Shown here in pieces: positions 1,642 to 55,934 of a DNA stretch of 64,000 nt (within the stretch, counting starts at the first letter, position 1; the number at the start of each line of letters is the position of its first letter). The position numbers and the translations under genes are program-made. Origin of the DNA: Cryobacterium sp. PH31-O1 (GTDB lineage: Bacteria > Actinomycetota > Actinomycetes > Actinomycetales > Microbacteriaceae); assembly GCF_030063455.1 (NCBI RefSeq), contig NZ_JASITB010000003.1:327726-391725 (forward strand), read 5' to 3'. The notes under the pieces are model-generated. The model had not been told where the DNA came from. It saw only the letters and a program-made list of their open reading frames with translations, and did no database searches.

Positions 1642-1714
1642 GGCCGGCCACGGGACTTGAACCCGTAACCCCCACTTTACAAGAGTGGTGCGCTACCAAT
1701 TGCGCCAGGCCGGC
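1642..1714 (-). tRNA. tRNA-Thr (anticodon TGT)
   Basis: A full cloverleaf reads on the minus strand: acceptor GCCGGCC pairing with GGCCGGC, D-stem GCGC/GCGC around a loop containing AATTGGTA, anticodon stem CCACT/AGTGG with loop CTTGTAA (anticodon TGT, reading ACA), and a T-arm with loop TTCAAGT closed by ACGGG/CCCGT. The discriminator base appears to be C and no CCA is encoded. It stands alone between the DsbA-like gene and the FBP-domain gene. Confidence 0.95.
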
Positions 1715-2735: not shown

Positions 2736-2944
2736 AAAGAATCGCTTTCGAGAAGGAAGGGGGCGCGTAAAGGCACCTTTGGAATATTAGGTCCCCTGAC
2801 TGGGAAACGACCAAACGGGCGCAGACCTGTGCCGGGGCATCCGTCGTGTAATAATGGAGAGGTCGTGCGCTTCGGCACGCGACGCACAAATCCTATTCAC
2901 AACGGATCGTCCGGCACGTTCCTGCCGGTGAAGGAGTAAAAATC

Positions 2945-4042
2945 ATGGCTTCAGTGACCTTTGACAAGGCAACCCGGCTCTATCCGGGTTCCACCCGACC
3001 GGCTGTTGACAAGCTCGACCTGCAGGTCGCTGATGGCGAATTCCTGGTTCTGGTTGGCCCGTCCGGCTGCGGCAAGTCCACCTCGTTGCGTATGCTCGCC
3101 GGCCTCGAAGAGGTCAACGAGGGCGACATCTTCATCGGTGAGCGCAACGTGACCGATGTTCCGCCGAAGGACCGCGACATTGCCATGGTCTTTCAGAACT
3201 ACGCGCTGTACCCGCACATGACCGTCGCCGAGAACATGGGCTTCGCGCTCAAGATCGCCGGAATCAACAAGGATGAGCGCGCCGCGCGCGTGCTCGAAGC
3301 CGCCAAGCTGCTCGACCTGGAGCCGTACCTCAGTCGCAAACCGAAAGCGCTCTCGGGAGGTCAGCGTCAGCGCGTGGCCATGGGTCGCGCGATCGTGCGT
3401 CAGCCGCAGGTGTTCCTGATGGATGAGCCGCTCTCGAACCTCGACGCCAAGCTGCGCGTGCAGACGCGTACGCAGATCGCGTCGCTGCAGCGCCGACTCG
3501 GCGTCACGACCGTCTACGTGACCCACGACCAGACCGAGGCACTTACCATGGGTGACCGGATTGCGGTGCTGAAGGACGGCATCCTGCAGCAGGTCGGTTC
3601 GCCTCGCGACCTGTACGCCAAGCCGCAGAACGTGTTCGTGGCCGGGTTCATCGGAAGCCCCGCGATGAACCTGTTCCTCGCTGACACCGTCGACGGCGGC
3701 ATCAAGTTCGGGACCGCGACCGTTCCCGTTCAGCGCGAGACACTCGCCAGCTCGACCGGCAAGAAGGTCACCGTAGGAATTCGCCCTGAGGACATCCAGA
3801 TGTCGTCCACCGCCGGTGAGGGCCTGCAGATCGAGGTCGACCTGGTCGAAGAACTCGGCGCTGACGGTTACCTCTACGGCCACTCCACGATCGAGGGCAA
3901 GCGCACCGACATCGTCGCTCGCGTCGACGGCCGCTCGCACCCGAACGCCGGCGAGACGGTGTACCTCACGGCCACCCCGAACCACCTGCACGTGTTCGAC
4001 GCCGAAAGCGGACTGCGCCTCGGCGGCGCCGTCACCGACTAG
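2945..4042 (+). CDS. Sugar ABC transporter ATPase, MsmK/UgpC type
   Basis: A 365-residue ATPase of the MalK/MsmK/UgpC family, which energises binding-protein-dependent sugar importers at the inner face of the membrane. Walker [10 protein letters not shown] is at residues 38-46, the Q-loop is MVFQNYALYPHMT, the signature LSGGQRQRVAMG is near 136, Walker B is VFLMDEPLSNLDAKLR and the switch histidine is YVTHDQTEA. The C-terminal third is the regulatory TOBE/OB-type domain (TVGIRPEDIQ). No permease or binding-protein gene is adjacent, so it probably serves several importers as a shared ATPase, a common arrangement in Actinobacteria. The ATG is preceded by a clear AAGGAG ribosome site. Confidence 0.93.
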   Translation: MASVTFDKATRLYPGSTRPAVDKLDLQVADGEFLVLVGPSGCGKSTSLRMLAGLEEVNEGDIFIGERNVTDVPPKDRDIAMVFQNYALYPHMTVAENMGFALKIAGINKDERAARVLEAAKLLDLEPYLSRKPKALSGGQRQRVAMGRAIVRQPQVFLMDEPLSNLDAKLRVQTRTQIASLQRRLGVTTVYVTHDQTEALTMGDRIAVLKDGILQQVGSPRDLYAKPQNVFVAGFIGSPAMNLFLADTVDGGIKFGTATVPVQRETLASSTGKKVTVGIRPEDIQMSSTAGEGLQIEVDLVEELGADGYLYGHSTIEGKRTDIVARVDGRSHPNAGETVYLTATPNHLHVFDAESGLRLGGAVTD

Positions 4043-4092: not shown

Positions 4093-5403
4093 ATGAGCGG
4101 TTCTCTCAATATCACGTCGGCCACAGCCGACCCTGCCCTGCTTGACCTGCCATGGCAGCTGCCTCTCGACGCCTGGCCGAATGAGAACATCGCCTCGCTG
4201 CCCAAGGGCATCTCCCGTCACCTCGTGCGGTTCGCCCACCTGAGCGGGCGGGTGGTCGCCATTAAGGAGACCACGAGCGAGATGGCCAAGCGTGAGTACG
4301 ACATGCTGCGCACCCTGGCCCACCTGGAGATTCCCTGCGTCGAGCCGGTCGCCGTCATCACCAACAGAACGGACGCCTCTGAGGAGCCGCTCAATTCGGT
4401 TCTGGTCACGCGTCACCTCAAGTTCTCCCTCCCCTACCGGGCCCTGTATTCGCATGCCCTGCGCCCGGATACCGCCACCCGGCTGGTCGACGCCCTCGCC
4501 GTGCTGCTCGTGCGGCTGCATATGATCGGCTTTTTTTGGGGCGATGTGTCGCTCTCGAACACCCTGTTCCGGCGCGACGCCGGGGCGTTTGCCGCTTACC
4601 TCGTCGATGCGGAAACGGGGCAGTTGTACTCCGGCGGGCTGTCGAACGGCCAGCGTGAAAATGACCTCGAAATTGCCAGGGTGAACATCGCCGGCGAGCT
4701 GATGGACCTCGAGGCCGGCGGCCGGGTCGCCGACGAACTCGACCCGATTCGAGTCAGCAACGGGATCGTTGCCGCATACCGGCTGCTGTGGAAGGAACTC
4801 ACCGGTTCGGAGTCGTTCTCCAATTCCGAACGCTGGCGCATCACCCAGCGTGTGCAGCGCCTCAACGACCTGGGTTTCGACATCGAGGAACTCGCTATTA
4901 AGACCGACAGCGCCGGGTCGAGCGTGCGCATCCAGCCCAAGGTCGTCGACGCCGGGCATCACCAACGCCGGCTGTTGCGTCTGACCGGCCTCGACGCCGA
5001 GGAGAACCAGGCCCGTCGCCTGCTGAATGACCTCGACTCCTATCGGGCCGCCTACGGCGATCCACGGGCTGACGAAGAAATGGTCGCGCACGAGTGGCTC
5101 GTGCGGGTGTTCGAGCCGGTGGTGCGGGCAATTCCCGAGGAACTACAGGGCAAGCTTGAGCGGGCACAGGTGTTCCATCAGCTGCTCGATCACCGCTGGT
5201 ACATGGCCCAAAACCAGTCGCGGGATATTCCGCTCGCCGAGGCCGTAACCTCCTACGTGCAGGATGTGCTGCGGCACCGCCGCGACGAGGCGACCGTGAT
5301 CGATCCTCTCACCGGAGCCATCACCCTGCCGATTCGGGTGCAGCTCGGCGATAACACGTCGGCCGACCCCGACGATGCCGACGACTGGAAGCTCAAGGTC
5401 TAG
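4093..5403 (+). CDS. DUF4032 / lipopolysaccharide-kinase-like protein
   Basis: A 436-residue cytoplasmic protein matching the actinobacterial DUF4032 family. The N-terminal half resembles a small kinase fold of the LPS-kinase/RIO type: VVAIKETTSEMAKREYDMLRTL supplies the likely ATP-binding lysine and helix-C glutamate, and GFFWGDVSLSNTLF with AYLVDAETGQ resembles a catalytic HxDxxxxN-like loop and a metal-binding aspartate. The C-terminal half (from about residue 230) is the DUF4032 part, ending in an acidic tail. Substrate and physiological role are not known. The ATG follows 50 bases after the sugar-ABC ATPase. Family assignment is firm; kinase activity is inference from motifs. Confidence 0.8.
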   Translation: MSGSLNITSATADPALLDLPWQLPLDAWPNENIASLPKGISRHLVRFAHLSGRVVAIKETTSEMAKREYDMLRTLAHLEIPCVEPVAVITNRTDASEEPLNSVLVTRHLKFSLPYRALYSHALRPDTATRLVDALAVLLVRLHMIGFFWGDVSLSNTLFRRDAGAFAAYLVDAETGQLYSGGLSNGQRENDLEIARVNIAGELMDLEAGGRVADELDPIRVSNGIVAAYRLLWKELTGSESFSNSERWRITQRVQRLNDLGFDIEELAIKTDSAGSSVRIQPKVVDAGHHQRRLLRLTGLDAEENQARRLLNDLDSYRAAYGDPRADEEMVAHEWLVRVFEPVVRAIPEELQGKLERAQVFHQLLDHRWYMAQNQSRDIPLAEAVTSYVQDVLRHRRDEATVIDPLTGAITLPIRVQLGDNTSADPDDADDWKLKV

Positions 5404-5441: not shown

Positions 5442-5508
5442 GGACGGGGCCCGGGCCCCGTCCACGGGCCCAGCTTATAAACTGGGCCCCGGGCCACAAG
5501 GTGGGCCC
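5442..5508 (+). repeat. 67-bp double-palindrome repeat, copy A
   Basis: First of six copies of a 67-bp element (others at 5589, 6830, 17402, 17543 and 30310). It consists of a 22-bp GC-only palindrome (GGACGGGGCCC and its complement), then a second palindrome built on GGGCCCAG, TTATAA and CTGGGCCC, then CCACAAGGTGGGCCC. It lies in the 313-base gap between the converging DUF4032 and AbiEi-like genes, which otherwise holds only copy B and unremarkable GC-rich sequence. Confidence 0.9.
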
Positions 5509-5588
5509 AAGCCGGTCGCGCGCGGTCGGCATCCGCTCGGGCATCCGCTCACCGGTGCGGAGCGGTGGCCCTCACGCGCAGTGTATGC

Positions 5589-5655
5589 GGACGGGGCCCG
5601 GGCCCCGTCCACGGGCCCAGCTTACAAACTGGGCCCCGGGCCACAAGGTGGGCCC
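5589..5655 (+). repeat. 67-bp double-palindrome repeat, copy B
   Basis: Same length and orientation as copy A, 80 bp further on. One base differs in the central TTATAA (here TTACAA), which slightly breaks the second palindrome. Confidence 0.9.
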
Positions 5656-5716: not shown

Positions 5717-6703
5717 TTAGGCGCGCGGAACGTCGTGCTGGATCATGAATTCGTAGAATAGGCGGGGAGAGTAAGCCGTGTCCCAGTCCCAGCGGTCGAA
5801 GCTGGTGACTTCTGGACGCAGTACGTTTTCTCGATCCTTCTCGGCGATGACCACATCGCCCGGATGCCGGTCGCCCAGTATCACGCCCCGGGAGTACTTG
5901 ATTTTGCCGTCGAATTCGCCGATTTTACGCACACCGCGCCAGAAGAAGTTGACCCAGTACTCCCGGCCCTGCACGACGAAGCGCACCTGAAGTTCGGGAA
6001 TCTCGAAGCCCAACTCGGCCATGCGCACCCGGCTCAACGACTCGCCAGGATTGGCAGACAGACCATTTGCGAAGTCGATGACCCGACGCACCTTCGGACT
6101 TCCACGGCGCGGATGCACCATCGCCAGTTCCGTGTAGAGATCGTCTTTGGAAAGTGCGGGCGCAATGAGACCACCCTGCCAACACTCCCGCTGCGCGCGC
6201 TCCTGCTCCACCCGCAGGGCGTGGTCCATCATAGTGACCCCGACGAGAAAGCTGGAGGTGGCCGCCACATCGATGAGCGTGCGCCTGAGGGTGGTGGCGG
6301 CGCATCCGTTTATCGTGACCGGCTCCGGCTCGACCACGCTTCGATGGCTCGTGGTGAATCGGGCGCTGCTACCCCCGGCTGTGTCGTTGTTGATCGCGTG
6401 CACGACTTTCGGCCAGGGTCCGATAATGGGCAGATTGTGCAGCGCTGCCGCAGACAGGTGAGAGAGCAGAAGCGGTTGCTCGGCCGTGACCACGGCGGCG
6501 CGAACGAATAGTCGATAGTGGTCGGCGCTCTCGGCCCTGCGCCAGGTGTCCCCCAAGGTATAAACTCCGCGGCGGATGCGCACCAGCTCACCATTCGCAA
6601 GTAGCGCGCGCACGGCACGGGTGTTCAGACCCGCAGCCCACAGGGACTCGGCAAGAATCAGACCGCCGTTGGGGGCGCTGGGAACATCCAGAATCTCAAG
6701 CAT
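5717..6703 (-). CDS. AbiEi-antitoxin-like / DUF559-type protein
   Basis: A 328-residue protein with an N-terminal winged-helix region like that of type IV antitoxin AbiEi (AESLWAAGLNTRAVRALLANGELVRIRRGVYTLG), a central segment with LLSHLSAAALHNLPI, and a C-terminal half resembling the DUF559/Vsr-like nuclease fold found in many actinobacterial relatives (REYWVNFFWRGVRKIGEFDGKIKY with D and K residues, then a REN/RPEV region). No AbiEii nucleotidyltransferase toxin lies next to it, so it is an orphan of the kind common in Actinobacteria. I use the ATG at 6703, where similarity to the family starts; a GTG at 6811 would add 36 residues of poor composition. Function is not established. Confidence 0.65.
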   Translation of the reverse strand: MLEILDVPSAPNGGLILAESLWAAGLNTRAVRALLANGELVRIRRGVYTLGDTWRRAESADHYRLFVRAAVVTAEQPLLLSHLSAAALHNLPIIGPWPKVVHAINNDTAGGSSARFTTSHRSVVEPEPVTINGCAATTLRRTLIDVAATSSFLVGVTMMDHALRVEQERAQRECWQGGLIAPALSKDDLYTELAMVHPRRGSPKVRRVIDFANGLSANPGESLSRVRMAELGFEIPELQVRFVVQGREYWVNFFWRGVRKIGEFDGKIKYSRGVILGDRHPGDVVIAEKDRENVLRPEVTSFDRWDWDTAYSPRLFYEFMIQHDVPRA

Positions 6704-6829: not shown

Positions 6830-6896
6830 GGGCCCACCCTATGACCACGGGCCCAGTCTATAAACTGGGCCCGTGGACGGGGCCCGGGCCCCGTCC
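6830..6896 (-). repeat. 67-bp double-palindrome repeat, copy C (inverted)
   Basis: Same 67-bp unit as copies A and B but in the opposite orientation. It ends 19 bases past the stop of rlmB, so it may also act as that operon's terminator; the two palindromes can form strong hairpins on either strand. Confidence 0.9.
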
Positions 6897-6915: not shown

Positions 6916-8055
6916 CTAGAGCTTGGCGGCGGCCTTGGCCTGCTTGATCTGGGCGCGGAGACGGGCCACCTCGTAGAGGGTGACTCCGGCGGCGATTCCG
7001 GCGTTGAGCGACTCGGTCGCCGCGCTGATGGGAATCGAGACTATTGCGTCGCAGGTCTCGGTGACGAGGCGGGACAAGCCCTTGCCCTCACTGCCAACAA
7101 CGATCACGATGGGGCGCTCGGCGAAGCCGGTGCCGAGATCGGGCAGCGACACGTCGCCGTCTCCGTCGAGGCCGAGCACGAACACTCCCTGCGCCTTGAG
7201 CGCCTTGAGCGTCTGGGTGAGGTTGCTCGCCATGGCAACGGGCGTGCGTGCCGCGGCTCCGGCGCTGGTCTTCCAGGCCGAAGCGGTGACACCGACCGAG
7301 CGACGCTGCGGCACGATGATTCCGTGGCCGCCGAACGCAGCGGTCGAGCGGATGATCGCGCCCAGGTTACGCGGGTCGGTGATGCCGTCCAGGGCCACGA
7401 ACAACGGCTTGTGGCCGCGGCTGATGGTGAGTTCGAGCAGCTCCATCGGGTGCGCGTACTCATAGGCGGGCACCTTGAGCGCGAGTCCCTGGTGCACGGC
7501 GTCGCGACCGGCGAGGCGGTCGAGTTCGGGGCGCATGACCTCGAGGATGGGGATGTTGCGGCTCGTCGCCATGAGCAGCACCTCTTTGACCCGCTCATCC
7601 ATTTCGATGCGCGCGGCAATGTAGAGAGTCAGCGCGGGAATCTTCGCGCGCAGCGCCTCGAGCACCGAGTTGCGCCCGGTGACGATCTCGTGCTCGTCGA
7701 TCTGCTTCGCGCGACGGGTTGAGGATCCGCCGCCGCCGCTGTTGCCGGTGCCGCGCTGGGGGGCCTGCGAGGCTCCGCGGGCGCCGCCGCGAGGCGTGCC
7801 GCCACGACCGCCGGCCGAACCGCCACGGTTGGCGGAGGCATCCGCTGCGGGGCGGGAGTTGAAACCACCGGCGGCGGTGAACCGCTCGGCCGCCGCCTTA
7901 CGCTTGCCGGCGGGGTGATACGGACGGTCTTCAGCCTTGGGGGTGGGCTTTTTGCCCTCGAGCGCCTGGCGGCCCTGGCCGCCAGAGCCGACCTGGGCCC
8001 CGCGGCTGCCCTTGCGCACCGCTCCGGTACGCGATTTGCGGTCTAGATTCTTCAT
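6916..8055 (-). CDS. rlmB: 23S rRNA 2'-O-ribose methyltransferase RlmB
   Basis: A SpoU/TrmH-family methyltransferase (379 residues) that methylates G2251-type guanosine of 23S rRNA. Residues 1 to about 125 are a disordered, Gly/Arg/Ala-rich basic extension; the RNA-binding domain starts near [17 protein letters not shown], and the SPOUT knot motifs are [16 protein letters not shown] (motif 1), [10 protein letters not shown] (motif 2) and [17 protein letters not shown] (motif 3). The start ATG overlaps the cysS stop codon by one base, so the two are translationally coupled. The long basic N-terminal extension is typical of actinobacterial homologues. Last gene of the ispDF-cysS-rlmB run. Confidence 0.93.
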
Positions 8056-14831: not shown

Positions 14832-14881
14832 GTTCTTCACGGCGGATGCGCGCGCCCGGGTGAATTAACGGCGGTCGCGCG

Positions 14882-14975
14882 CGCATAACTCCTGCAATTT
14901 GCGTGCACATAATTTTTCAGGCCCGGAACTACGCGAAACTTGAATCGACGTTCGAGAATTTGCAGGAGTTATGCG
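14882..14975. repeat. 94-bp inverted-repeat-bounded intergenic element, copy 1
   Basis: Bounded by about 18-bp inverted repeats (CGCATAACTCCTGCAA and complement). Read on the minus strand it aligns without gaps to the element at 20744-20837, sharing the ends, TTCTCNAACG, CAAGTTTCGCGT and TGAAAAA. It sits in the 217-base gap after phoU. Confidence 0.85.
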
Positions 14976-14996
14976 GCCTGAGCGGGTGCGGACATG

Positions 14997-17401: not shown

Positions 17402-17468
17402 GGGCCCACCATATGAACACGGGCCCAGTTTATAAACTGGGCCCCGGGACGGGGCCTGGGCCCCGTCC
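17402..17468 (-). repeat. 67-bp double-palindrome repeat, copy D (inverted)
   Basis: Same unit as copies A-C, oriented like C. The central palindrome GGGCCCAGTTTA/TAAACTGGGCCC is perfect; the GC palindrome has one change (GGCCTGGGCC). It lies in the 323-base gap between the YgfZ-like and nitrobindin-like genes, which contains nothing else but copy E. Confidence 0.9.
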
Positions 17469-17542: not shown

Positions 17543-17609
17543 GGGCCCACCTTATGAACACGGGCCCAGTTTATAAACTGGGCCCCGGGACGGGGCCTGG
17601 GCCCCGTCC
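17543..17609 (-). repeat. 67-bp double-palindrome repeat, copy E (inverted)
   Basis: Nearly identical to copy D, 74 bp further on in the same orientation and sharing its single change, so D and E probably arose by local duplication. It ends 17 bases from the stop of the nitrobindin-like gene. Confidence 0.9.
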
Positions 17610-17625: not shown

Positions 17626-18609
17626 CTACTCGACCCGGGCTAGGCGGCCGGAGGCGTGCGTGCGCAGGTCCTGGCCGAGGGCGGCGATGTCCCAGGCCCA
17701 GAGCAGATGGTTGTCGACGAGGCCGTACAGGCGAGTAGCGGCCGCGTACGGCTTCGCACCCGCGGTGCGGAGTACGGCGTCGGTGGCGAGGTCGATACGT
17801 GGCCCCTTCACCTGACCCAGATAGAGCTCAGCGACACCGCCGGGGTGCACGAGGGTCACCTCGATATCGAAGCCGCCATCACGGTTGCGCAGCGTTTCCA
17901 CGGCCGCGGCCGAGGTGAACGGGCGCTCGCCGGTGCCGGGCAGCATGCCGGGGCCAGGGTCGCCGTCCCCCTGGTGCCGGCTCAGGCGCCAATAGCCGGT
18001 TTCGGTGACCAGCGGAATTCTCTCGTCCGACAACATCTCGGGCGGCAGGATCGACGCGCGTGCTTCAGCGGATGCCGCGGCATGCGTTCCGGACGCGGCA
18101 TGCGTCCCGGCGGAAGCGTCAGTCCCGGCGGTGCCATCCGTCCCGGAGGCGTCAGTCCCGGAGGCGTCAGTCCCGGAGGCGGCAGTCCCGGCGGCGGCCG
18201 TCCCGGAGGCATCAGTCCCGGAGGCATCAGTCCCGGAGGCATCAGTCCCGGAGGCGGCAGTCCCGGACGCGGCATGCGTCCCGGCAGAAGCGTCCGTCCT
18301 GGCGGAAGGGGGTGTCGGCAGGGAAGCATCCGCTTCGGACGCGGCATCCATCCCGGCGGCGGCATCCGTCCCGGCGGCATCCGTTTCTGGGGCGGCGGTA
18401 TCAGACGGGCCGGCGGGCTCAAGCCAGGTGTAGGAGCTGTAATTCAGGTGCGGCAGGCCGTCATGGCTGAAGCTGATGCGGTGGCCGAAGGTGCGGCTGA
18501 CCGATTCGTCGCCGATCTTGTACTCAAGCACGCCCGAGCCTTCCCAGACTCCGATCAGCCAAGAGAGTGGAACAAGTTCGGACGGCAAACCGACCGGGAG
18601 GTCAAACAT
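17626..18609 (-). CDS. Nitrobindin/FABP-like protein with large repeat insertion
   Basis: A 327-residue member of the heme-binding nitrobindin-like (DUF1794, FABP-like) beta-barrel family, which is normally about 200 residues long. The N-terminal part is typical: PLSWLIGVWEGSGVLEY (the GxWxGxG motif) and SFSHDGLPHLNYSSYTWLEP; the C-terminal part resumes with VTETGYWRLS and ends ALGQDLRTHASGRLARVE. Between residues about 66 and 188 lies a low-complexity insertion rich in A, S, T, D and G with tandem GTDAS pentapeptides. The insertion replaces the loop between two barrel strands without breaking the frame. The protein may still fold; its ligand is unknown. Confidence 0.82.
   Translation of the reverse strand: MFDLPVGLPSELVPLSWLIGVWEGSGVLEYKIGDESVSRTFGHRISFSHDGLPHLNYSSYTWLEPAGPSDTAAPETDAAGTDAAAGMDAASEADASLPTPPSARTDASAGTHAASGTAASGTDASGTDASGTDASGTAAAGTAASGTDASGTDASGTDGTAGTDASAGTHAASGTHAAASAEARASILPPEMLSDERIPLVTETGYWRLSRHQGDGDPGPGMLPGTGERPFTSAAAVETLRNRDGGFDIEVTLVHPGGVAELYLGQVKGPRIDLATDAVLRTAGAKPYAAATRLYGLVDNHLLWAWDIAALGQDLRTHASGRLARVE
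18130..18264 (-). repeat. 15-bp tandem repeat inside the nitrobindin-like gene
   Basis: About nine units of a 15-bp repeat (plus-strand form GGAGGCATCAGTCCC with variants) encode (GTDAS)n and GTAAS. The unit length is a multiple of three, so gain or loss of units keeps the frame. The wider low-complexity insertion spans about 18046-18414. Confidence 0.85.
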
Positions 18610-20696: not shown

Positions 20697-20743
20697 AATT
20701 CGAGGCTGACGCGCTATCCAGCTGCCAGCACACAGGGCACGGG

Positions 20744-20837
20744 CGCATAACTCCTGCAAATTCTCTAACGCCGCAGCAAGTTTCGCGTGATTGCGCGGGT
20801 GAAAAACTTTACGGCCGCAAATTGCAGGAGTTATGCG
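20744..20837. repeat. 94-bp inverted-repeat-bounded intergenic element, copy 2
   Basis: Same length and ends as the element at 14882-14975 and aligned to it over its whole length when that copy is read on the minus strand. It sits 47 bases after mshD in a 395-base gap before ppk. Confidence 0.85.
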
Positions 20838-20852
20838 CCACAAAGGGGGGGG

Positions 20853-30207: not shown

Positions 30208-30290
30208 TGCCTCCAGGCGTGAGTGACTCCGGGCTCGGTGCCTCCAGGCGTGAATGCCTCCGGGCGTGAATGCCTCCGGGCTCGGGGCCT
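30208..30290. repeat. Imperfect tandem repeat, unit GCCTCCGGGCGTGAAT
   Basis: About five imperfect units (GCCTCCAGGCGTGAAT, GCCTCCGGGCGTGAAT, GACTCCGGGCTCG and variants) lie 80-160 bases upstream of the amidohydrolase start and directly before repeat copy F. This 490-base gap also holds copy F and the purine-rich duplication at about 30456-30487. Confidence 0.7.
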
Positions 30291-30309: not shown

Positions 30310-30376
30310 GGACGGGGCCCGGGCCCCGTCCCCGGGCCCAGTTTAGAAACTGGGCCCGGGGCCATAAGGTGGGCCC
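30310..30376 (+). repeat. 67-bp double-palindrome repeat, copy F
   Basis: Sixth copy, oriented like A and B, with central TTTAGAAAC instead of TTTATAAAC. Same 67-bp length. It lies between the divergent amidohydrolase and secreted-protein genes, so it is not confined to gene ends. Confidence 0.9.
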
Positions 30377-30618
30377 GGGCGGGACCGACAATGAGCACGG
30401 GCGCGCCGGCGGCTCGATCAACGACATCGGGCGGACCGACAGCGGGCCGGCCGTGGCAGGAGGGAGGAGGCAGGAGGGAGGAGAGCCTAACAGGCATTAC
30501 GAAAAGGTGACAATTTGTCAAGAAACCGTAGATATCTACGGTGAAGGCCGCTACGGTATGGCCTTCGGTGCCAATTCGCGGCCCGCGCCCAATCGACCAT
30601 GCTGACAGGAATTCGCAA

Positions 30619-31152
30619 ATGGTAAAGAAGTTCTTCGCAATCACCGCCCTCGCCACTCTCGCCACTCTCGCCGTCTTTGCGGTCCCGGCGGCAGCAGCAT
30701 CCGCTGTCGATTATGTTCCCGGGGGCGACGTAAACGTGACGGTGACGGGGGTTCCCACTCCCGGAGCGTCCGTGACGGTGACGGCCGAACCGGGCTCCTT
30801 TCCCGACGACTCGAGCGCGGCCATCACTATCTCCGGCTCCCCCAAGGCCAGCGTCGGCGCGGTGAAGGCGCCGACCGGCGCCGTGAACAACACCGGTTCG
30901 GTGAGCTTTACCGTGGTGCTTCCCGCCACGGCCGCGGGGTCGCAGACCGCCACCATCTCCGGAGCCCAGACCGGCCGCTCGGGTTCGGCCGTCATCACCC
31001 TGGTCGTGGCAGACTCCGCCGCCGCCCGGCTCGCCTCCGCGGGCTATACGGCACCGACCGGGCTGATCTGGGGCGGCGGCGCCGCGCTGGTGCTCGGACT
31101 CGCCCTGGCCGCAGCGAGCGCGATGACGCGTCGGCGCGCATCCGCTAACTAG
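30619..31152 (+). CDS. Secreted cell-surface protein with C-terminal membrane anchor
   Basis: A 177-residue protein: signal peptide at residues 1-27 (KKFFAIT, hydrophobic core, AAAASA), an Ig-like beta domain with VNVTVTGVPTPGASVTVTAEPG, and a C-terminal span (LIWGGGAALVLGLALAAASA) followed by TRRRAS. The arrangement is that of a surface protein held by a membrane tail, without LPXTG. Start at ATG 30619 with AGGA upstream; the open frame extends further but lacks support. No function recognised. It precedes a two-component system on the same strand. Confidence 0.65.
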   Translation: MVKKFFAITALATLATLAVFAVPAAAASAVDYVPGGDVNVTVTGVPTPGASVTVTAEPGSFPDDSSAAITISGSPKASVGAVKAPTGAVNNTGSVSFTVVLPATAAGSQTATISGAQTGRSGSAVITLVVADSAAARLASAGYTAPTGLIWGGGAALVLGLALAAASAMTRRRASAN

Positions 31153-31279
31153 ACAACCAACCGCCCGAGATAGTGCTGTCGCCCACGGTCTGGCCAACCG
31201 CAGGATTCTGTCCAGTTTCCATAACCCCCATAGTGGGCTAAACCGTCGTGAGGGCCGTGTAAAACCCTAGGCTGAGGCC

Positions 31280-43842: not shown

Positions 43843-44107
43843 TCGTGAGCCATATTCACAATAGAAATATTTTCAAGAACGTGACTGGCCACGGACGAAA
43901 CAAAACTAGGTGTCAGCCCCACGAACGCCCCCAATGTGTGTCGCGATAGTTCGCGTCAGGCCGCGATGTGATCTGTCTCGATGAATAGCCCGCACTCGCT
44001 TATTCCACTCGCCATCCTACTGTCGAAAGAATTCAACCGCGAAAGCACAAAACGTAAGCGCCGTATACTCTGAAAGCAAGGTTTCAGACGCGTGGTGGGC
44101 GCGGCTT

Positions 44108-44662
44108 GTGGAACGAAAAATTACGGGGCCATCGGCCATGGAAAATCATCCGGCTGAGTATTCGTCTCCGATTCCAGTCATAAACCTCGCCGACACTCCA
44201 AAGAAGCACACCGCAAGGGACAGACCAAAGGTTGAGATTTATCTGCGGACAACTTGCGAACTTCTGTTCGTCACAGACGCTTGGCAAATAGGTTCCTCTC
44301 TTCGAGTGCGATTTCAACCATTTTTCGGCGATGAAAGTGACGATGATGTGATCCTTTGCCCACGAACGCGCGTGAAATCTTCGTGAAAACTGCACTTCAG
44401 CGACCGCTTTCGAATAGGCGATGGCGTCAGTTTTCAGAATGAAAACGATACTCGCTTGGACAGCGCCGTTGTTGTTTCGCAGGACAACTTTCTAGCCTCC
44501 CGCATTAAGGTACAACAGCGAAACGTTGCCTTGCTCGTTAGACCAATTCGCATTTCAAATGGTGGGTGGAAAAGTCCTAATGTAGACTACTCGGCGGCAT
44601 TTCCATCGACAAGTCACCTCCTTTTTGAAGTGTACCTACGGCTTCAAGGCCTGATTAAATGA
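44108..44662 (+). pseudogene. Decayed WcaF-like acetyltransferase
   Basis: Reading from 44108 through one TGA (44384-44386) gives a protein matching the intact acetyltransferase at 45636: CELLFVTDAWQIGSSLRVRF versus FELLFISNPWQISSRLRVLV, PRTRVK at the same place, and the TGA where the intact copy has Trp in PWKLH. Downstream VVVSQDNFLASR and VRPIRISNGGW still align, but hexapeptide turns are lost and the C-terminus (SPNVDYSAAF) no longer matches. No active enzyme would be made. Upstream 265 bases contain a TATACT box and no gene. Confidence 0.75.
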
Positions 44663-44688
44663 CCATTGTTCCGAGCAAAGAGGTTCAA

Positions 44689-45330
44689 ATGAATATTGCT
44701 AAACTGACTCGACTAGCCTTCAGCGAATTTCGTCCTTCGGTGTGGCGCACATTCAGGGCGCTGCCCTACCAAGGGCGATGTGTTGTCGGCCAACGGTTTC
44801 GGCTTGTTGGGGGCAACAACATCCGCGCGACGAGAAACGCTCGCATAAAATTGGGCGTCGGGTACTACGGTTTCGTTGACAGTCGTGTGGGAGGTCTGCT
44901 TCGGATCGGCGGACGCCTTGAGGTGAATGGCACTGTTTCCGTCGCCAGCGGAAATCGCTGGGATATTGGACAGAATTCGACCATGGCTGTCGGTGACGGC
45001 ACTCATTTTTCACCGTTTGTCCTGATAATTACGTCAATAGGACTGACCGTTGGTAAAAATTGCGCAATCGGCTGGAACGTGCAGATTCTGGACGATGATT
45101 TTCACAGTCTCAGTGTAAATGGCACTCTTCCGGGGCCCACGAGCAAAGCCATCCAAATTGGCAATCGAGTCTGGATCGGGAGCCACGCGAAAATCTTCAA
45201 GGGTGTGCAGATAGCAAATGGCTGCGTTGTGGCGGGGAACGCGACGGTCACAAGAAGTTTTTCTGAGGAAAACTGTCTCATTGCGGGATCTCCTGCGACT
45301 GTAATCCGTCGCAATGTTGCGTGGCATTAG
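44689..45330 (+). CDS. Acyltransferase with left-handed beta-helix (hexapeptide repeats)
   Basis: A 213-residue sugar O-acetyltransferase-like protein. Hexapeptide turns include LTVGKNCAIGWNVQILDDD, IQIGNRVWIGSHAKIFKGVQ and IANGCVVAGNATVT; the active His is in DDDFHSL. ATG 44689 is supported by AAAGAGG; ATG 44659 would add 10 residues. It would acetylate a sugar of the repeat unit. The next 305 bases up to 45636 contain no credible gene. Confidence 0.8.
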   Translation: MNIAKLTRLAFSEFRPSVWRTFRALPYQGRCVVGQRFRLVGGNNIRATRNARIKLGVGYYGFVDSRVGGLLRIGGRLEVNGTVSVASGNRWDIGQNSTMAVGDGTHFSPFVLIITSIGLTVGKNCAIGWNVQILDDDFHSLSVNGTLPGPTSKAIQIGNRVWIGSHAKIFKGVQIANGCVVAGNATVTRSFSEENCLIAGSPATVIRRNVAWH

Positions 45331-45635
45331 TTCATGTCGGTCGAAATATCCACTCACAGCTGACCGGTACACGGACAGGATGTTGAGCAACGACTTTCGA
45401 TTGCACATCGTCGTCGGGTGGAGCGCTAAGTGGGTTGGTCGTCGCCCAAATTGGGACAAGCGTACAAGAATACCAGTTGAACCTAATCACTGCGAGCGAT
45501 ACACCACCTAGGTCAGCGCCGAACGACCCGGGGCTGACCGGTGCGCTACGGCAGAGAAATTTAAGTGCACTCGGCGGCCTTTAGCCGTCAATCCATTGAC
45601 TAGAATTGAAACACGTGGCAGGTATCGGGGGAACC

Positions 45636-46241
45636 GTGAAAGACACAAATAATGCAAATCATTCTGTGCCCGTCTTGAGCCTAAAGTCGGCCCCAGGGCA
45701 ACACGAGGCGTGGGACCGATCTCGACTCACGGTGTATTCGTGGGCAATTTTCGAACTGCTCTTTATCTCGAACCCGTGGCAGATCAGTTCACGACTCAGG
45801 GTCTTAGTGCTCCGAATGTTTGGTGCCGAAATAGGCCACGGTGTGATATTTCGGCCCAGAACGCGCGTAAAATTCCCGTGGAAGCTCCATATTGGTCAGG
45901 ATTCCTGGATCGGTGAGGGTGTTTGGTTTCACAATCAGGACCATATCTACGTCGGACACGACGTCGCAATATCCCAGGAATCATTTCTGACAACTGGTAG
46001 CCACGCCTACCGGCAGGACATGGCTCTAATCACACGCCCAATCGTAATCGAGGACGGTGTTTGGGTAACCGCGAGGTGCATTATTCTCGGCGGTGCTCAC
46101 ATCATGCGATCTGCTGTCGTTGCTCCATACAGCGTGGTGAACGGCAAAATTCCATGTAACGTAATCGTTCACGGCCCGAATAGACTAGACCGCGAAATTC
46201 GCTTTTCGATAACCACGACCGATGCACCACCCGCGGAATAA
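45636..46241 (+). CDS. WcaF-like colanic-acid-type acetyltransferase
   Basis: A 201-residue hexapeptide acetyltransferase of the WcaF/CysE-like group: WAIFELLFISNPWQISSRLR, GVIFRPRTRVKFPWKLHIG, WIGEGVWFHNQDHIYVGHD and the active-site region TGSHAYRQDMALITRPI. GTG at 45636 with GGGGG upstream; the TTG at 45606 would add 10 residues. Intact counterpart of the pseudogene at 44108. The next glycosyltransferase starts within 6 bases, so the two are likely co-transcribed. Confidence 0.85.
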   Translation: MKDTNNANHSVPVLSLKSAPGQHEAWDRSRLTVYSWAIFELLFISNPWQISSRLRVLVLRMFGAEIGHGVIFRPRTRVKFPWKLHIGQDSWIGEGVWFHNQDHIYVGHDVAISQESFLTTGSHAYRQDMALITRPIVIEDGVWVTARCIILGGAHIMRSAVVAPYSVVNGKIPCNVIVHGPNRLDREIRFSITTTDAPPAE

Positions 46242-46246
46242 GATAC

Positions 46247-47479
46247 TTGGCGACAGATCAATTGCCTGTGCCTAATCCACCGGACGTATCCCTTACCGGC
46301 CCATTCCAAATAGTTCAAATTGTCGCCGCAATATCACCAACATACGGTGGACCGTCGATCAGCTCGGTGGCACTCCATCGTGCCCTGCTGAAAAGAGGAG
46401 TCAACGCAAGACTTCTCTCAACGTCGTATCAGGACGACTCTGGCAAGAGTCTGACGTCCCAAGACGCGCTCGAGCTAACAGGGCGCGGAACTAACATATG
46501 GCTCGGAACTCCCTCGCGGCCGTTAAAGATGAAGAACAGCCTCAAGCTCCTTTACCGCGTGTTGCGTGATACTCGCAACGCCAACCTTATTCACATCGAA
46601 GGTCACTATCTTCTACCAAATGTATATGGGTACCTATTTGCACGACTGTGGCGCGTACCATATGGTCTCCAACCACACGGGGCCCTAGAAAATCAAGATC
46701 ATTGGTCCATGAGCAAAAAGGGCATCTTCAATCTTCTGATTGGCAACGCCATGATACGCCATGCTCGTTACGTAGCCTTTGCTTCAGCAAACGAGGCATC
46801 CAGCGCCTCAAGTTTTGTCCGCGCCGATCAGGCCGCTATTCGGATCCTGGGCGCGGAATTGTCCATTCCTTGCGCGCCAGTGGGTAGCGAAACCAACGAT
46901 CAAATAGATCTCGCAGCTAGGGTTGCTGCGCTCCCCCGAAACAGTTGTTTCCTGTATTTGGGCAGGCTCGCATCCGTAAAACGTCCCGACCTACTATTAA
47001 GGGCTTGGTCGAAGTCGATCGCCGCCAACTATGGTCTGCTGATAGTTGCCGGTCCCGACGGCTCGTTTACGATTGACGATCTCAGGCAATTAGCTCAATC
47101 ACTCGCCGTGGAAGATAGCGTCGTCTTCATTGGCCCCGTTGCCGGGCCCGAAAAGTCCTGGCTTTATCAGCATGCCGGTACCTTCGTAGTCTCCTCAGAA
47201 CACGAAAGTTTTGGGCTTACTATTTGTGAGTCCATGCTCGCTGGCTGCCATGTCATCGCCAATCCGGAGGTAGCGGCCTCAGTCCTACTTCACGAAGCCA
47301 ACGCCGGCGATGTGATTTCTCCCATGAACGAAGTGACGCTCGCCGCCTCCTTGAACTCCGCCTTCACCAATCAACTTCACGTCAGCCAATCGGGTGAGCG
47401 GGCACGTACGTACGCCCAGACGCATGTCACTTGGACGCCAATGGTGGAACTACTAACACATCATGCACATATACAGTGA
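46247..47479 (+). CDS. Glycosyltransferase family 4
   Basis: A 410-residue GT-B glycosyltransferase. N-terminal: IVQIVAAISPTYGGPSISSV, with PHGALENQD as the donor-proximal loop; C-terminal: FLYLGRLASVKRPDLLLRAW and the E-x7-E motif SSEHESFGLTICESML. TTG start, 5 bases after the acetyltransferase stop; the exact start is uncertain. Codon use and GC content are lower than in the housekeeping genes. It overlaps or abuts the next GT2 gene. Confidence 0.83.
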   Translation: MATDQLPVPNPPDVSLTGPFQIVQIVAAISPTYGGPSISSVALHRALLKRGVNARLLSTSYQDDSGKSLTSQDALELTGRGTNIWLGTPSRPLKMKNSLKLLYRVLRDTRNANLIHIEGHYLLPNVYGYLFARLWRVPYGLQPHGALENQDHWSMSKKGIFNLLIGNAMIRHARYVAFASANEASSASSFVRADQAAIRILGAELSIPCAPVGSETNDQIDLAARVAALPRNSCFLYLGRLASVKRPDLLLRAWSKSIAANYGLLIVAGPDGSFTIDDLRQLAQSLAVEDSVVFIGPVAGPEKSWLYQHAGTFVVSSEHESFGLTICESMLAGCHVIANPEVAASVLLHEANAGDVISPMNEVTLAASLNSAFTNQLHVSQSGERARTYAQTHVTWTPMVELLTHHAHIQ

Positions 47480-47492
47480 AAGAAGACAATTA

Positions 47493-48332
47493 GTGAAGAT
47501 TCAGGCGTCGATTATCATTCTGACAAAAAACGAAACGTTGCATATCAAACGGGCTGTTAACAGCGCCCACGATTTTGCTGAAGTCTTGGTAGTTGATTCC
47601 AGCAGCACGGACGACACCTGCAGACTTGCCGAGAATGCAGGAGCAAAGATCATCCAGTTCGATTGGAATGGGGCCTATCCAAAAAAGAAAGAATGGGCTT
47701 TAACTAAAGCAGCCTACGACTGGGTTATATATCTCGACGCGGATGAATACCTGACTGAGAGCCTCGTGGCAGAAATACGATCAACTATAAGCGCTGAAAT
47801 TTCTACCGCCTTCGAAGTCCCTTTGAAGTACTTCTGGCTGGGTAAGGAACTTCGACACGGGCATCGGGTGAGCAAACGCATCGGGATCAGGACAAGCCAA
47901 AGTACTTGGCCGCGGCCTGATGATTTAGATGTAAAGAACATGTGGGAGGTCGAAGGACACTACCAGCCAGAAGTGCTTGGTAACGTAGCAAAATTGTCAT
48001 CACCCCTTGGGCACGATGATCAAGATGGTCTCTACGACTATTTTTCTCGACACAATCGATACAGTGATTGGGAGGCTTCGATGTTAACGAAGAAAGATCA
48101 GGAGTCCCTTTCCAATAGATCATACCTAGGCAGGATCGCCGCAAACCTTCCAGCCAAATCCACTCTGTTCTTGATCTACTCCTATATATTAAGAGGTGGA
48201 TTTCTTGACGGCCGATCCGGCTGGGAATACGCCCGGGCGCTGTCCTTCTATTATTGGCAAATTGAAGTTAAGCGTCGTGAACTCACCCTGGCAGCCTCAA
48301 GTCACTCCAATTTAGACGCCGCTACTAGTTGA
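47493..48332 (+). CDS. Glycosyltransferase family 2 (WaaE/KdtX-like)
   Basis: A 279-residue GT-A enzyme: SIIILTKNETLHIKRAV, VVDSSSTDDT and the metal-binding DXD in IYLDADEYLT, then a helical C-terminal part with a hydrophobic stretch (STLFLIYSYILRGG). This resembles the KDO/heptose GT2 branch (LpsE-like) that transfers to lipid-linked glycans. GTG at 47493 has AAGAAG upstream; an ATG at 47463 in the same frame is possible. Confidence 0.82.
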   Translation: MKIQASIIILTKNETLHIKRAVNSAHDFAEVLVVDSSSTDDTCRLAENAGAKIIQFDWNGAYPKKKEWALTKAAYDWVIYLDADEYLTESLVAEIRSTISAEISTAFEVPLKYFWLGKELRHGHRVSKRIGIRTSQSTWPRPDDLDVKNMWEVEGHYQPEVLGNVAKLSSPLGHDDQDGLYDYFSRHNRYSDWEASMLTKKDQESLSNRSYLGRIAANLPAKSTLFLIYSYILRGGFLDGRSGWEYARALSFYYWQIEVKRRELTLAASSHSNLDAATS

Positions 48333-48361
48333 GAAAAGTTTAGGCAGACGAATAGTGACGT

Positions 48362-49732
48362 CTAGGCATGAGAGGATATTCTGACCTGGCTATCCGCAGG
48401 ACGGAGGACCCTCAACGCCCATAGAACGGTCAACCATCCAACCGTGAGGCTATGCGAAATCAGGCTGCCGTAGAGGGGTCCTGCTAGACCGATCTGCTGG
48501 GTCAAATAGATGCTGAGTGGAACATTTATCCCCGCCATGATCAACGCGGGAATCGCCTGTGACCATACTTTCCCAGCACCATTCAGCAGAAAACTAAACT
48601 GCATCATGGCAAAGTTGTATGTGTTCCAGACTGCGAAGGCAAGAAAGAGATCCCAAGATGGGGAAATTGAGGAACCTACCCAAATTGGGACTAGCGACGG
48701 GCCCAATAACACGGCCAGGCCAGCTGCAACAACAAACAGCGTCATAGTTATCGAAAAAGTATGCCAAAATTTCCGACGCACCCATTCTTTATCATCCTCA
48801 GCTAGCGCATGAGCTACCGATGCCCACATCTGCTGCAGACCACCAGCAAACAATTGAATAAGGGACGAAAATATGCGCGTCAGAACAGCAAAGACAGCGG
48901 CACCCGCTGAGCCCAGAACGTATGCAACAACGAGAATATCCGTTTGATAAGCAATCGCTCCGGCGATTCCCATAACGAGAAATGGCAAACCTCTTAGGAC
49001 CATATTCAAAGCCCCCGAAAAACTTAGCAGACTCCACTTCGGTAGAACATACCTTTTATGCCGAATAAATAGGTAGATTGTCACAGCAAAATTGGTAATA
49101 CCAGGCACACCCACGAATATGAGAACAAAGTAACTGAGCGACAGATCGAACGAGACACCTATCGCGACTAAAACGAGCACCATCACCCCGCTGACTAGAT
49201 TTACTATGCCAGTCAATAGTCCAAATTGTAAGGACAGAGCTATCCGCGGTCCCACGTTGAATGGAAGCGTCACGCCAGTCGCAACCACGTACAATAACAG
49301 GGAAAGTCTGATCTCAGTTGCATTCACGCCTGGAGCGTCAAAGAGTAGTTCACTCGGCAAGTTTAGAACAATGGGACAACCTAAAACTACGACCAGTCCA
49401 CCAATTACTGATAAGGCAGCATATGAATTTGTGACCGCAGTGCGCATATCGCGGACCGTCCTGCGCGCATACGACCGGGCAAGGTCACTCACGAGAGATC
49501 CGCCAATGCCGAAGTCAAGAAACCCAAATAGACCAGTTAGCCCCACAATGATTGCCACTACGCCGTAGGCGTTAGCGCCCAAGTGTCTAGTCGCAGCCCC
49601 AATCGCGGCGAGACCGAGCAGAATTGTTAGTACTTTTGCGCCAGCACCGGACACGAACGCCCGCCGAATTGCCATATCTCGAATATTTTCACTGGGACGC
49701 GGGCATCGAATAGACCGTCGAGATGCCATCAT
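48362..49732 (-). CDS. Polysaccharide flippase, Wzx-like
   Basis: A 456-residue MATE/Wzx-type membrane protein with about 14 spans (first: VLTILLGLAAIGAATRHLG; others: LVVVLGCPIVL, VMVLVLVAIGVSF, TVGWLTVLWALRVL). It would flip undecaprenyl-linked repeat units. Its ATG overlaps the TGA of the upstream glycosyltransferase (ATGA), so translation is coupled. A later ATG at 49675 gives a more usual N-terminus (MAIRRAFVSGAG). Confidence 0.85.
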   Translation of the reverse strand: MMASRRSIRCPRPSENIRDMAIRRAFVSGAGAKVLTILLGLAAIGAATRHLGANAYGVVAIIVGLTGLFGFLDFGIGGSLVSDLARSYARRTVRDMRTAVTNSYAALSVIGGLVVVLGCPIVLNLPSELLFDAPGVNATEIRLSLLLYVVATGVTLPFNVGPRIALSLQFGLLTGIVNLVSGVMVLVLVAIGVSFDLSLSYFVLIFVGVPGITNFAVTIYLFIRHKRYVLPKWSLLSFSGALNMVLRGLPFLVMGIAGAIAYQTDILVVAYVLGSAGAAVFAVLTRIFSSLIQLFAGGLQQMWASVAHALAEDDKEWVRRKFWHTFSITMTLFVVAAGLAVLLGPSLVPIWVGSSISPSWDLFLAFAVWNTYNFAMMQFSFLLNGAGKVWSQAIPALIMAGINVPLSIYLTQQIGLAGPLYGSLISHSLTVGWLTVLWALRVLRPADSQVRISSHA

Positions 49733-50814
49733 CCAAGGACCTGTTGATACGCATTCCTTGTGAGTTCGGCCGTCTTCTGCCAGCTGAATTCAGCCACCCG
49801 ATTCAGCCCGAGTGCCTGGAGAACCTGAGTGCGTTCAGCGTGATCAACCACTGACAACATTTCCGCTGCTAGGGCACGCTCGTCGCCACGCGGAAAGACC
49901 CGTGCGGCGTCACCGGCAACCTCGAGCAACGCTGGGGCGTTCGAAATAACGATTGGACAACTGCACGCGAGCGCTTCAAGGATTGGAAGACCGAAACCCT
50001 CGTAGAACGAAGGGTAGACAAACACTGTTGCGCGTCGATATATCGTCGCAAGATCTGCATCCGTGGGGCTGCAGTGAAGAAAATTTTTCCCGAGATTCAA
50101 AGCACGAATTTGCTGCCGTTCCAAGTTATCCAGCGGATTGCCACCCACGAGAACTAATCCAACATCTAGGTCTTCACGAAGCAGAGCAAAGGCTTTGAGG
50201 AACACATCGAATCCTTTGTACGAAAATCGCGCGCCCACAAAGAGTACAAAGGTACGTGGGGTCTCCAACATCGAGGTAACAGTTGGAAGTTCCCCAAGAA
50301 AGGGATCTCCCACGGCGAGTGGCGTTACGAAGATTGGAGCGGATATTTTCGGGAAGTATGACAACAGATCATTCTTCGTGGTTTCTGAAACGCACAAAAT
50401 TGCATCAGCCTCAGTGACCTGCTGGGCCTTGTACTTATGCGCATCGCCGAGTGCAAACTTGTCTGGCAAAATTTCCGGTGACATATCATGGACCGTCATG
50501 ACTCTCTTATGGCCCTTAGCCAAATGGCGAGAATTGTAGTATGTGGAATGGACTAGGTCAGGTCTCAGGCGCGGACTCCGCGCGAGACCATTGGCAAATG
50601 ACAATATTCGTGGTCGATTTAGAATGTTGATCGGGAACGGTCTCGAGCCGAGCGCATCGTGGGCGCCCGAAGTCTTCGAAAAGACCGGCAAGCCGGTAAC
50701 TTCTACGTTGTAGCACGCGTTGGATCGAAACTCACGTACCAACCAAGCGAAGTAAGAACTAATTCCCCCACGAACTTGACTTACGAATATCTGATCGTCA
50801 AATTTGACGCGCAT
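49729..50814 (-). CDS. Glycosyltransferase family 4
   Basis: A 361-residue GT-B enzyme resembling mannosyl/glucosyl transferases of capsule clusters: HSTYYNSRHLAKGHKRVMTVHDMSPEIL, the loop VLFVGARFSYKGFDVFLKAF and the E-x7-E motif PSFYEGFGLPILEALA. N-terminal GGISSYFAWLVREF fits the acceptor side. Coupled to the flippase. GC content low, consistent with the surrounding island. Confidence 0.87.
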   Translation of the reverse strand: MRVKFDDQIFVSQVRGGISSYFAWLVREFRSNACYNVEVTGLPVFSKTSGAHDALGSRPFPINILNRPRILSFANGLARSPRLRPDLVHSTYYNSRHLAKGHKRVMTVHDMSPEILPDKFALGDAHKYKAQQVTEADAILCVSETTKNDLLSYFPKISAPIFVTPLAVGDPFLGELPTVTSMLETPRTFVLFVGARFSYKGFDVFLKAFALLREDLDVGLVLVGGNPLDNLERQQIRALNLGKNFLHCSPTDADLATIYRRATVFVYPSFYEGFGLPILEALACSCPIVISNAPALLEVAGDAARVFPRGDERALAAEMLSVVDHAERTQVLQALGLNRVAEFSWQKTAELTRNAYQQVLG

Positions 50815-50881
50815 GAGTCCTCGAACTCCTCACTCTTGTTCATATTTGACCTCAACTAATAGCATGATCCGATTTTTGATT

Positions 50882-50923
50882 ATTGAGTTGGCGTATATGG
50901 GGTGATCATACGAAAAACTCAAT
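50882..50923. promoter_or_regulatory. Nested inverted repeat between two glycosyltransferase genes
   Basis: ATTGAGTT (50882) and AACTCAAT (50916) form an outer pair and GTAT/ATAC an inner pair around ATGGGGTGATC. It lies in the 206-base gap upstream of the GT4 gene; it could be a terminator for the GT2 gene or an operator. No other feature seen. Confidence 0.35.
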
Positions 50924-51020
50924 CACTGAACCCGTCGGGCCAGAGCCTTGAGTAACACTTATATTCTATTGCACAGAGCCATTCGGACATAAGCGCGGCG
51001 GGCAAATGCTACCTTTCGTC

Positions 51021-51827: not shown

Positions 51828-51918
51828 GAGTTTCTCCATAGGTTTGTTCATGCAAAACACCGGTGGACCCGTGGATTGCGGTTCTTTGAACTCCAGAAAT
51901 TGATTTACTTCCTTGGTG

Positions 51919-53235: not shown

Positions 53236-53441
53236 TCCTGCAATCCTGAAACTTTGATTTTTCCTGACCCCCTCCAGTATCTTAGGTCAAAAATTCCAGG
53301 TGAGCGCCCAACCGTTGAGATGACTTCTCCCGGACCCTAGACGTCACGTCTTCGGGTTACGCCGAATGTTTCACGTCGGTCCATCTGAAGTCCTTTGGCC
53401 ACACTCGCTTCCAAACTGGGTCATGTCTGGACATGGGCCGA

Positions 53442-55907: not shown

Positions 55908-55934
55908 GGCGCAGCGGTGCGTTGACCGTGACCT

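Follow-up and report, generated by a model that had tools for sequence, protein, structure and literature searches.

The stretch of DNA analysed here, referred to as the window, spans 64,000 nucleotides of Cryobacterium sp. PH31-O1 (G000:C11:327726-391725; the source genome, G000, comprises 3.64 Mb in 17 contigs) and carries six copies of a palindromic element together with a gene encoding a 328-aa protein (Table 1). The starts of all six copies, their exact length of 67 bp and their occurrence in both orientations (read from P22), as given in a preliminary description of this DNA, were verified, and so was an anatomy of two palindromes and a third GGGCCC box, namely P22, P24 and a 17-bp third box whose last bases are GGGCCC, with 2 bp between successive parts. 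In the layout with P22 first, P22 is a 22-bp palindrome in which two matching 5-nt arms enclose GGGCCCGGGCCC, P24 is a 24-bp palindrome of the form GGGCCC-12-GGGCCC with 2 nt on either side, and the third box consists of 11 nt followed by GGGCCC. A second form of the element is 72 bp long and carries P22 at both ends (P22-P24-P22). The geometry of the GGGCCC boxes is exactly kept.

Table 1. Coordinates of the 67-bp elements, the candidate partner gene and its flanking genes in the window
Feature	Position	Strand	Remarks
Flanking gene, DUF4032	4093..5403	+	stop 38 bp before copy 1; included in species tree
67-bp element copy 1	5442..5508	+	P22 5442-5463, nn 5464-5465, P24 5466-5489, nn 5490-5491, third box 5492-5508
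67-bp element copy 2	5589..5655	+	tandem to copy 1, start-to-start 147 bp; 3' of gene 5717-6703(-)
Candidate partner gene, 328 aa	5717..6703	-	between copies 5589 and 6830; N-terminal AbiEi-type winged helix
67-bp element copy 3	6830..6896	-	inverted relative to copies 1 and 2; upstream of gene 5717-6703(-), 3' of SpoU gene
Flanking gene, SpoU methylase	6916..8055	-	gene end 19 bp from copy 3; included in species tree
67-bp element copy 4	17402..17468	-	slot orthologous across the clade
67-bp element copy 5	17543..17609	-	tandem to copy 4 (141 bp); 3' of gene 17626-18609
67-bp element copy 6	30310..30376	+	right-hand neighbour gene uncertain

An Rfam search of the whole window at gathering score returned only a tRNA at 1642-1714(-) and an msiK cis-regulatory RNA at 2885-2942(+), just upstream of the ABC-transporter ATPase gene 2945-4042, and the elements match no described Rfam family. 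Several further features of the window were recorded. The gene at 17626-18609 encodes a THAP4-like heme-binding domain and contains arrays of 15- and 18-bp repeats at 18062-18411, and a 98-nt inverted repeat with 82% complementarity occupies 14881-14978 and 20741-20838, 5.8 kb apart. Positions 44000-56000 have a G+C content of 50-56% versus 62-68% elsewhere, with almost no genes called by our own simple caller, and are probably an acquired island.

The family extends genome-wide beyond the six copies. Allowing up to 3 mismatches, P24 was found at 67 sites of the 3.64-Mb genome versus 2 for a reversed control pattern, and P22 at 85 sites versus 0; a motif scan of the window and the stretches around these sites then yielded 64 element sites, none within genes called by our simple caller. 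The earlier statement that copies are always intergenic thus agrees with the census, except that the context of copy 30310 is uncertain, both candidate genes on its right, 30487-31197(-) and 30619-31152(+), having no Pfam match. Contigs C10, C12, C13 and C17 of the source genome begin or stop about 10-510 bp from an element, as if the assembly broke there. A geometry-only pattern (GGGCCC geometry, 30 fixed bases, up to 3 mismatches) matched in 17 of 57 Cryobacterium genomes and in none of the remaining 40, and a sample from the same family, Microbacteriaceae, outside the genus (388 of 398 genomes) gave one poor match, a 3-mismatch site in G119. Among the named matches listed, the element pattern occurred in Cryobacterium records alone. 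In protein trees of the two flanking genes, which cover 29 and 28 of the 57 Cryobacterium genomes, the carriers present and the element-free G014 formed one group, supported at 98/93 with G026 and at 100/99 in the tree without G026.

The elements lie predominantly behind genes. Of 279 pooled sites, 239 had at least 700 bp on both sides, and their neighbouring genes were convergent in 88 cases, co-directional in 136 and divergent in 7 (one of these, at window position 30272, being a false duplicate of copy 30310); the other 8 sites fell inside called genes, several of them near called gene ends. Gaps of at least 110 bp at the same loci, element-bearing ones included (n=545), comprised 101 convergent, 317 co-directional and 127 divergent cases, so that the elements avoid divergent gaps (p 3e-14) and favour convergent ones (p 2e-8; 231 placed sites versus 545 gaps). 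The median distance from stop codon to element was 26 nt, and in co-directional settings the P22 end of the 67-form pointed towards the stop in 75 of 107 cases. In several relatives devoid of the element, another hairpin was seen by eye in the same slot. This positional pattern, close 3' of genes and avoided between divergent ones, is that of a terminator. It would suit a reading of the elements as terminators or mRNA 3'-end stabilisers held by structural selection and homogenised by ordinary RecA gene conversion, with the AbiEi-like gene a bystander flanked by two of them by chance, a reading to which we give a low probability. No U-tract followed in either direction, T making up 0.10-0.12 of the 12 nt that follow the third box and, for the opposite strand, A 0.09-0.12 of the 12 nt that precede P22, where the sequence is pyrimidine-rich regardless of gene direction. 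A canonical intrinsic terminator, a hairpin followed by a U-tract, was accordingly rejected, and the gene-end placement together with the missing U-tract suggests a terminator or mRNA 3'-end location lacking the canonical signal. The terminator reading can appeal to GC-rich Streptomyces terminators, whose U-tracts are weak too according to PMC12207403; it leaves unexplained three observations described below, namely dialects that agree with the phylogeny of a single gene and conflict with the local species tree, few and decayed elements in genomes lacking that gene, and paralogues with palindromes of their own.

Folding and covariation point to paired structure within the elements. The 72-form folded into one long hairpin in all 119 strand records, and the 67-forms folded mostly as two hairpins or one longer stem. 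The P24 stem covaries, and the 2-bp spacers on its two sides show an excess of complementarity, with complementary pairs in 94 of 217 distinct 67-forms versus a mean of 30 and a maximum of 48 in shuffles. By genome, this excess is clear in G000, G011, G053 and G038 and absent from G020 (5/25, expected 3.2) and G035 (3/22, expected 2.4); the spacers of the 72-form are complementary at chance level (8/60). No strand preference emerged from wobbles in the P24 stem (T-G 77 versus C-A 68 over four pairs), and since single pairs disagree in direction (35 to 14 for pair 24-49, 5 to 25 for pair 33-40), no strand can be assigned to the elements.

The preliminary description had read the constant length and few substitutions as a sign of recent spread or selection; recent spread was not supported. 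Slots are orthologous between species, and of 479 orthologous 67-67 pairs, 470 have both members in the same orientation. These pairs are not independent, tandem copies having been paired crosswise, and 7 of the 9 flipped pairs involve false elements. Target-site duplications were absent from the 67-forms at k=5 to 9 (k=4, 1/219, expected 0.25) and from about 120 72-forms at k=3 to 9. A MITE with target duplications is thereby ruled out, and recent transposition into new sites is contradicted by the orthologous slots and orientation. Low substitution among copies does not imply recent spread, since the slots are old and their sequences homogenised. Twenty-seven tandem pairs were found, 18 of them at a spacing of 136-161 bp, and one neighbouring pair had opposite orientations; at L071, L182 and L088 the spacer between tandem copies repeats, by eye, the 3' end of the upstream gene, which suggests that some tandem pairs arose by local duplication.

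The paired hairpins had also been likened to REP sequences moved by RAYT proteins. A genome-wide REP-like family is indeed present, with many, almost exclusively intergenic copies as in REP/REPIN sequences, and RAYTs as its movers were rejected, given that the Y1_Tnp domain (PF01797) was found in none of the 57 Cryobacterium genomes including the source, with 5 of 14 control genomes positive. REP/REPIN sequences carry a 5' GT[AG]G tetranucleotide followed by a palindrome, as set out in PMC3686654. No such foot is conserved in the elements: the inner foot of P22 reads GTGG only with the left spacer AC, in at least 46 of 206 67-forms (25 combinations listed), and where GTGG occurs in the third box, all that comes after it is the 6-bp GGGCCC. 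We consider a mobile family of the REP/REPIN or MITE kind, driven by a transposase, very improbable and largely refuted. The abundance of the elements between genes, the single REPIN-like hairpin of the 72-form and tandem pairs such as those of REPIN clusters (PMC3116915) speak for it, and it is countered by the missing PF01797 and target duplications, the orthologous slots and orientation, and the unconserved foot.

The absence of "such a protein" from the window, as previously stated, holds for RAYTs, yet a likely partner of another family is encoded between copies 5589 and 6830. Its start is the ATG at 6703, which is common to 14 genomes, the upstream frame being interrupted in most. The 328-aa protein matched Pfam AbiEi_4 at 25.7 bits (cut-off 25), and 31 of 32 members of the protein family matched at E<=1, several of them under the cut-off. 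Foldseek with a structure model that is good only for the N-terminal ~210 residues and poor in the C-terminal domain retrieved the AbiEi antitoxin (6y8q, E 1.9e-5) and Rv2827c (1zel, 1.5e-3). Profile searches gave no significant family match for the C-terminal domain, a PDB sequence search with the protein returned nothing significant, PHROGs and NCBIfam gave no match, and no relative was found among viral contigs. The neighbours of the gene encode the DUF4032 and SpoU proteins, and no adjacent nucleotidyltransferase toxin gene was found. Invariant in the C-terminal domain are E221, GEFDG at 262-266 and E288-K289, and this domain possibly resembles DUF559/Vsr-like (PD-(D/E)XK) nucleases, the DUF559 match of one distant homologue (from Collinsella) lying under the cut-off at E 0.022 and the model being poor there. 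Position 252 is N in the source-genome protein and D in the other 31 of 32 members, so the former is possibly inactive if this residue is catalytic.

The gene was found at its locus in 14 of the 18 clade loci searched and not in those of G014, G027, G037 and G046. These four genomes gave 0, 10, 13 and 9 element strand matches, respectively, versus 20-90 in the others (rank test p 0.002, with gene absence representing about three independent events). Box mismatches affected 7 of 8 67-form records in G027, G037 and G046 versus 67 of 221 elsewhere (p 0.0002).

Two dialects of the element were distinguished, type I with arms GGACG..CGTCC and core AGTTTATAAACT, and type II with arms TTTCC..GGAAA and core ATGATAGATCAT; the classifier calls the four G026 elements type I by core, although their arms and third box differ. 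Both types occupy the same slots in different species, and most genomes have one main dialect (mainly I in G011 and G053, mainly II in G048). Of the geometry-only matches, 28 rows after de-duplication, all 14 from type-II genomes were type II; type-I genomes gave 6 I and 1 II, and other genomes 3 I, 3 II and 1 mixed. Further rows (26 of 30 listed, reverse readings of 72-forms excluded, those of G048 overlapping the 28-row set) gave 9 II and 1 I in G048, 8 I in G053, and 5 II, 1 I and 2 mixed in G015. G029 showed type II in 3 of 3 geometry-only matches. Over all loci, the types coexist as 6 II, 4 I and 2 mixed in G029, 2 and 2 in G019, and 19 I, 6 II and 1 mixed in G020, many of these loci having been found with type-I queries.

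Dialect follows the partner protein and not the local species tree. In the protein tree, a branch supported at 97/97 separates the eight type-I genomes from the five type-II genomes, and none of 500 shuffles did as well; G026, which has arms of its own, was left ungrouped. The local species tree, built from four genes close to the locus, represents one neighbourhood and has weak support at some other nodes; it pairs G011 with G048 (100/100) and G029 with G053 (99.9/100), and forcing both pairs on the partner gene cost 314 lnL units (AU p 0.00018). Across 77 genome pairs, neighbouring genes were 89.4% identical within types and 89.6% across, and the partner gene 83.9% within and 76.7% across. 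Type-II proteins are 74-85% identical to each other and 75-81% to type I, and since they do not form a tight group, the signal comes mainly from the one tight protein clade of the type-I genomes. Elements close to the gene could have been carried along with it, and the weight therefore falls on distant sites, for which the geometry-only matches stand. On these grounds, and on those of the genomes lacking the gene and of the paralogues described below, the 328-aa protein and the 67/72-bp repeats are likely cognate partners.

At unchanged positions, the interior of the elements has been exchanged. Outside the boxes, orthologous copies were 46% identical between G000 and G048 (15 pairs) and 43% between G000 and G015 (9 pairs), and copies within G000 were 76% identical to one another; the orthologous pairs here, like those of the sister species below, are not independent. 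The neighbouring genes of the sister species are about 95% identical although the dialect switches. For G011 and G048, all 10 compared 67-67 rows (4 slots) were I versus II, with roughly half of the non-box positions differing at every compared slot and the neighbouring genes differing by 5%. For G029 and G053, dialects differed in 3 of 5 slots, and the 2 slots that were type I in both had been obtained with type-I queries. At the best slot (L310/L321), the two copies have a common tail (CCGAACAT; CCGAACATGGGCCC) and 95% identity over the 60 bp on the right, and the arms and core have been exchanged, which shows patchy replacement inside the element and not a new insertion. Several other switched slots have adjoining 60 bp only 62-80% alike, and longer replaced stretches are possible there. 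Slots at gene 3' ends have thus been inherited in fixed orientation while their interior was overwritten in place.

The same co-variation of gene and dialect would be produced by a protein that is merely a sequence-specific binder, either a nucleoid or a roadblock-terminator factor, whose sites adapt by selection and passive recombination with no nuclease involved. We regard this as unlikely, although only the DNA-binding half of the protein can be identified, because the divergence at about half of the non-box positions in the G011/G048 slots is fast for site-by-site adaptation and one switch tract (L310/L321) ends inside the element.

Beyond the clade, comparable palindromes accompany paralogues of the gene. 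Twenty paralogue loci (48-60% identical) were drawn from the weaker matches among those listed. Hairpins of -40 kcal/mol or lower occurred within 420 nt on both sides at 9 of the 20, versus 2 of 153 control genes; 3 had no strong hairpin on either side, and 10 passed a strict nested-palindrome test. Their outer boxes differ (GGCGCA.., GGCACTC..), and a likeness to the window element's third box is seen in the 60-bp plan and in motif CCATAAGGTG of G010. Box dialects scored by eye for 27 of 32 proteins fitted the protein tree with 2 changes, the lowest number possible, attained in 0 of 200 shuffles. Paralogue palindromes were counted in parts of several genomes: G010 had 5 (216 kb searched; 3 away from the gene), G009 had 3 (34 kb; 1 away) and G022 had 4 (93 kb; 1 away), and G007 had none in 40 kb; a control search of 200 kb of G000 gave four matches, all inside genes and not element-like. 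At L401 (G048) and L403 (G011), genomes of the GGGCCC family contain a second paralogue with GGCAC-box palindromes beside it, suggesting that a single genome may accommodate more than one pair of repeat and protein.

The Collinsella homologue is 28-31% identical over the C-terminal part and has palindrome arrays directly on both sides, found at 28 places in the record, a figure that possibly counts both strands. In Collinsella aerofaciens NZ_OY725717.1 (L445, 15742-35750), palindromes of about 60 bp form tandem arrays with a period of about 81 bp within about 10 kb of the AbiEi-like gene, with none in the next 50 kb. An IS200/IS605 tnpA adjoins another Collinsella array, and the Collinsella case is therefore suggestive only. 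The locus of a Tsukamurella plasmid homologue showed no nested palindrome.

Taken together, the explanation we lean towards is that the elements are dispersed cognate sites of the 328-aa protein, converted in place and kept at gene ends. To judge from its fold and the co-variation, the protein would bind the elements, and a new allele would arrive by horizontal exchange of the partner gene. Mismatched elements might then be cut or nicked and repaired from cognate copies, converting slots one by one in a homing-like, biased gene conversion; cutting is suggested by the in-place conversion and by the C-terminal invariants, in a domain that may be nuclease-like. Such protein-directed conversion in situ is the mechanism we favour, tentatively. 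The host may tolerate or keep the copies because a strong hairpin behind a stop would itself be, or would replace, the terminator or 3'-end stabiliser of element-free relatives, a benefit suggested by element position. A broader and equally tentative proposal is that AbiEi-winged-helix proteins with a nuclease-like tail each maintain private dispersed palindromes, that a foreign allele, once it has displaced the resident gene, cuts elements of the old dialect and, through repair from cognate copies, rewrites tens of gene-end sites across the chromosome, and that such a homing-like drive on terminator slots is widespread in Actinomycetota, the Collinsella homologue with its flanking palindromes being a distant example. 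If the pairing of protein and repeats is right, it would give a function to a group of "AbiEi-like" genes and would be a naturally occurring example of an entire repeat family replaced in place, in which sister species differ in the dialect of the whole family although the positions stay the same.

The familiar bacterial example of dispersed palindromes paired with a protein of their own is REP/RAYT. Open-licence full texts yielded no published description of the pairing reported here, and from sequence comparison the association of an AbiEi-type protein with palindromes looks new as a pairing, apparently independent of REP/RAYT. Like the REP/REPIN-RAYT systems described in PMC3116915 and PMC3686654, it has multicopy intergenic palindromes, a partner gene between inverted copies, dialects that go with the partner, tandem arrays in which the flanks are included, and compensatory stem changes. 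Unlike them, the partner here is an AbiEi-type winged-helix protein and not an HUH transposase, and the elements lack the GT[AG]G foot and occupy fixed slots with in-place switching in place of new insertions. The N-terminal fold of the protein is shared with the AbiEi/Rv2827c antitoxins of type IV toxin-antitoxin systems. According to PMC7319586, members of this group bind paired inverted repeats of about 23 bp with cognate specificity: AbiEi recognises two 23-bp inverted repeats separated by 3 bp and did not bind those of its relative Rv2827c. P22 and P24 are likewise inverted repeats, 22 and 24 bp long and 2 bp apart. Differences from AbiEi/Rv2827c are that no toxin gene adjoins, that a C-terminal domain is added, and that tens of dispersed sites replace one promoter. 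With GC-rich actinobacterial intrinsic terminators, the elements share stable GC hairpins just after stops, often between convergent genes, and they differ in having no U-tract and a fixed 67/72-bp multi-palindrome geometry genome-wide with one main dialect. Homing endonucleases or biased gene conversion would account for the in-place overwriting of homologous sites; in contrast to those systems, the putative targets here are dispersed repeats and not one allelic site.
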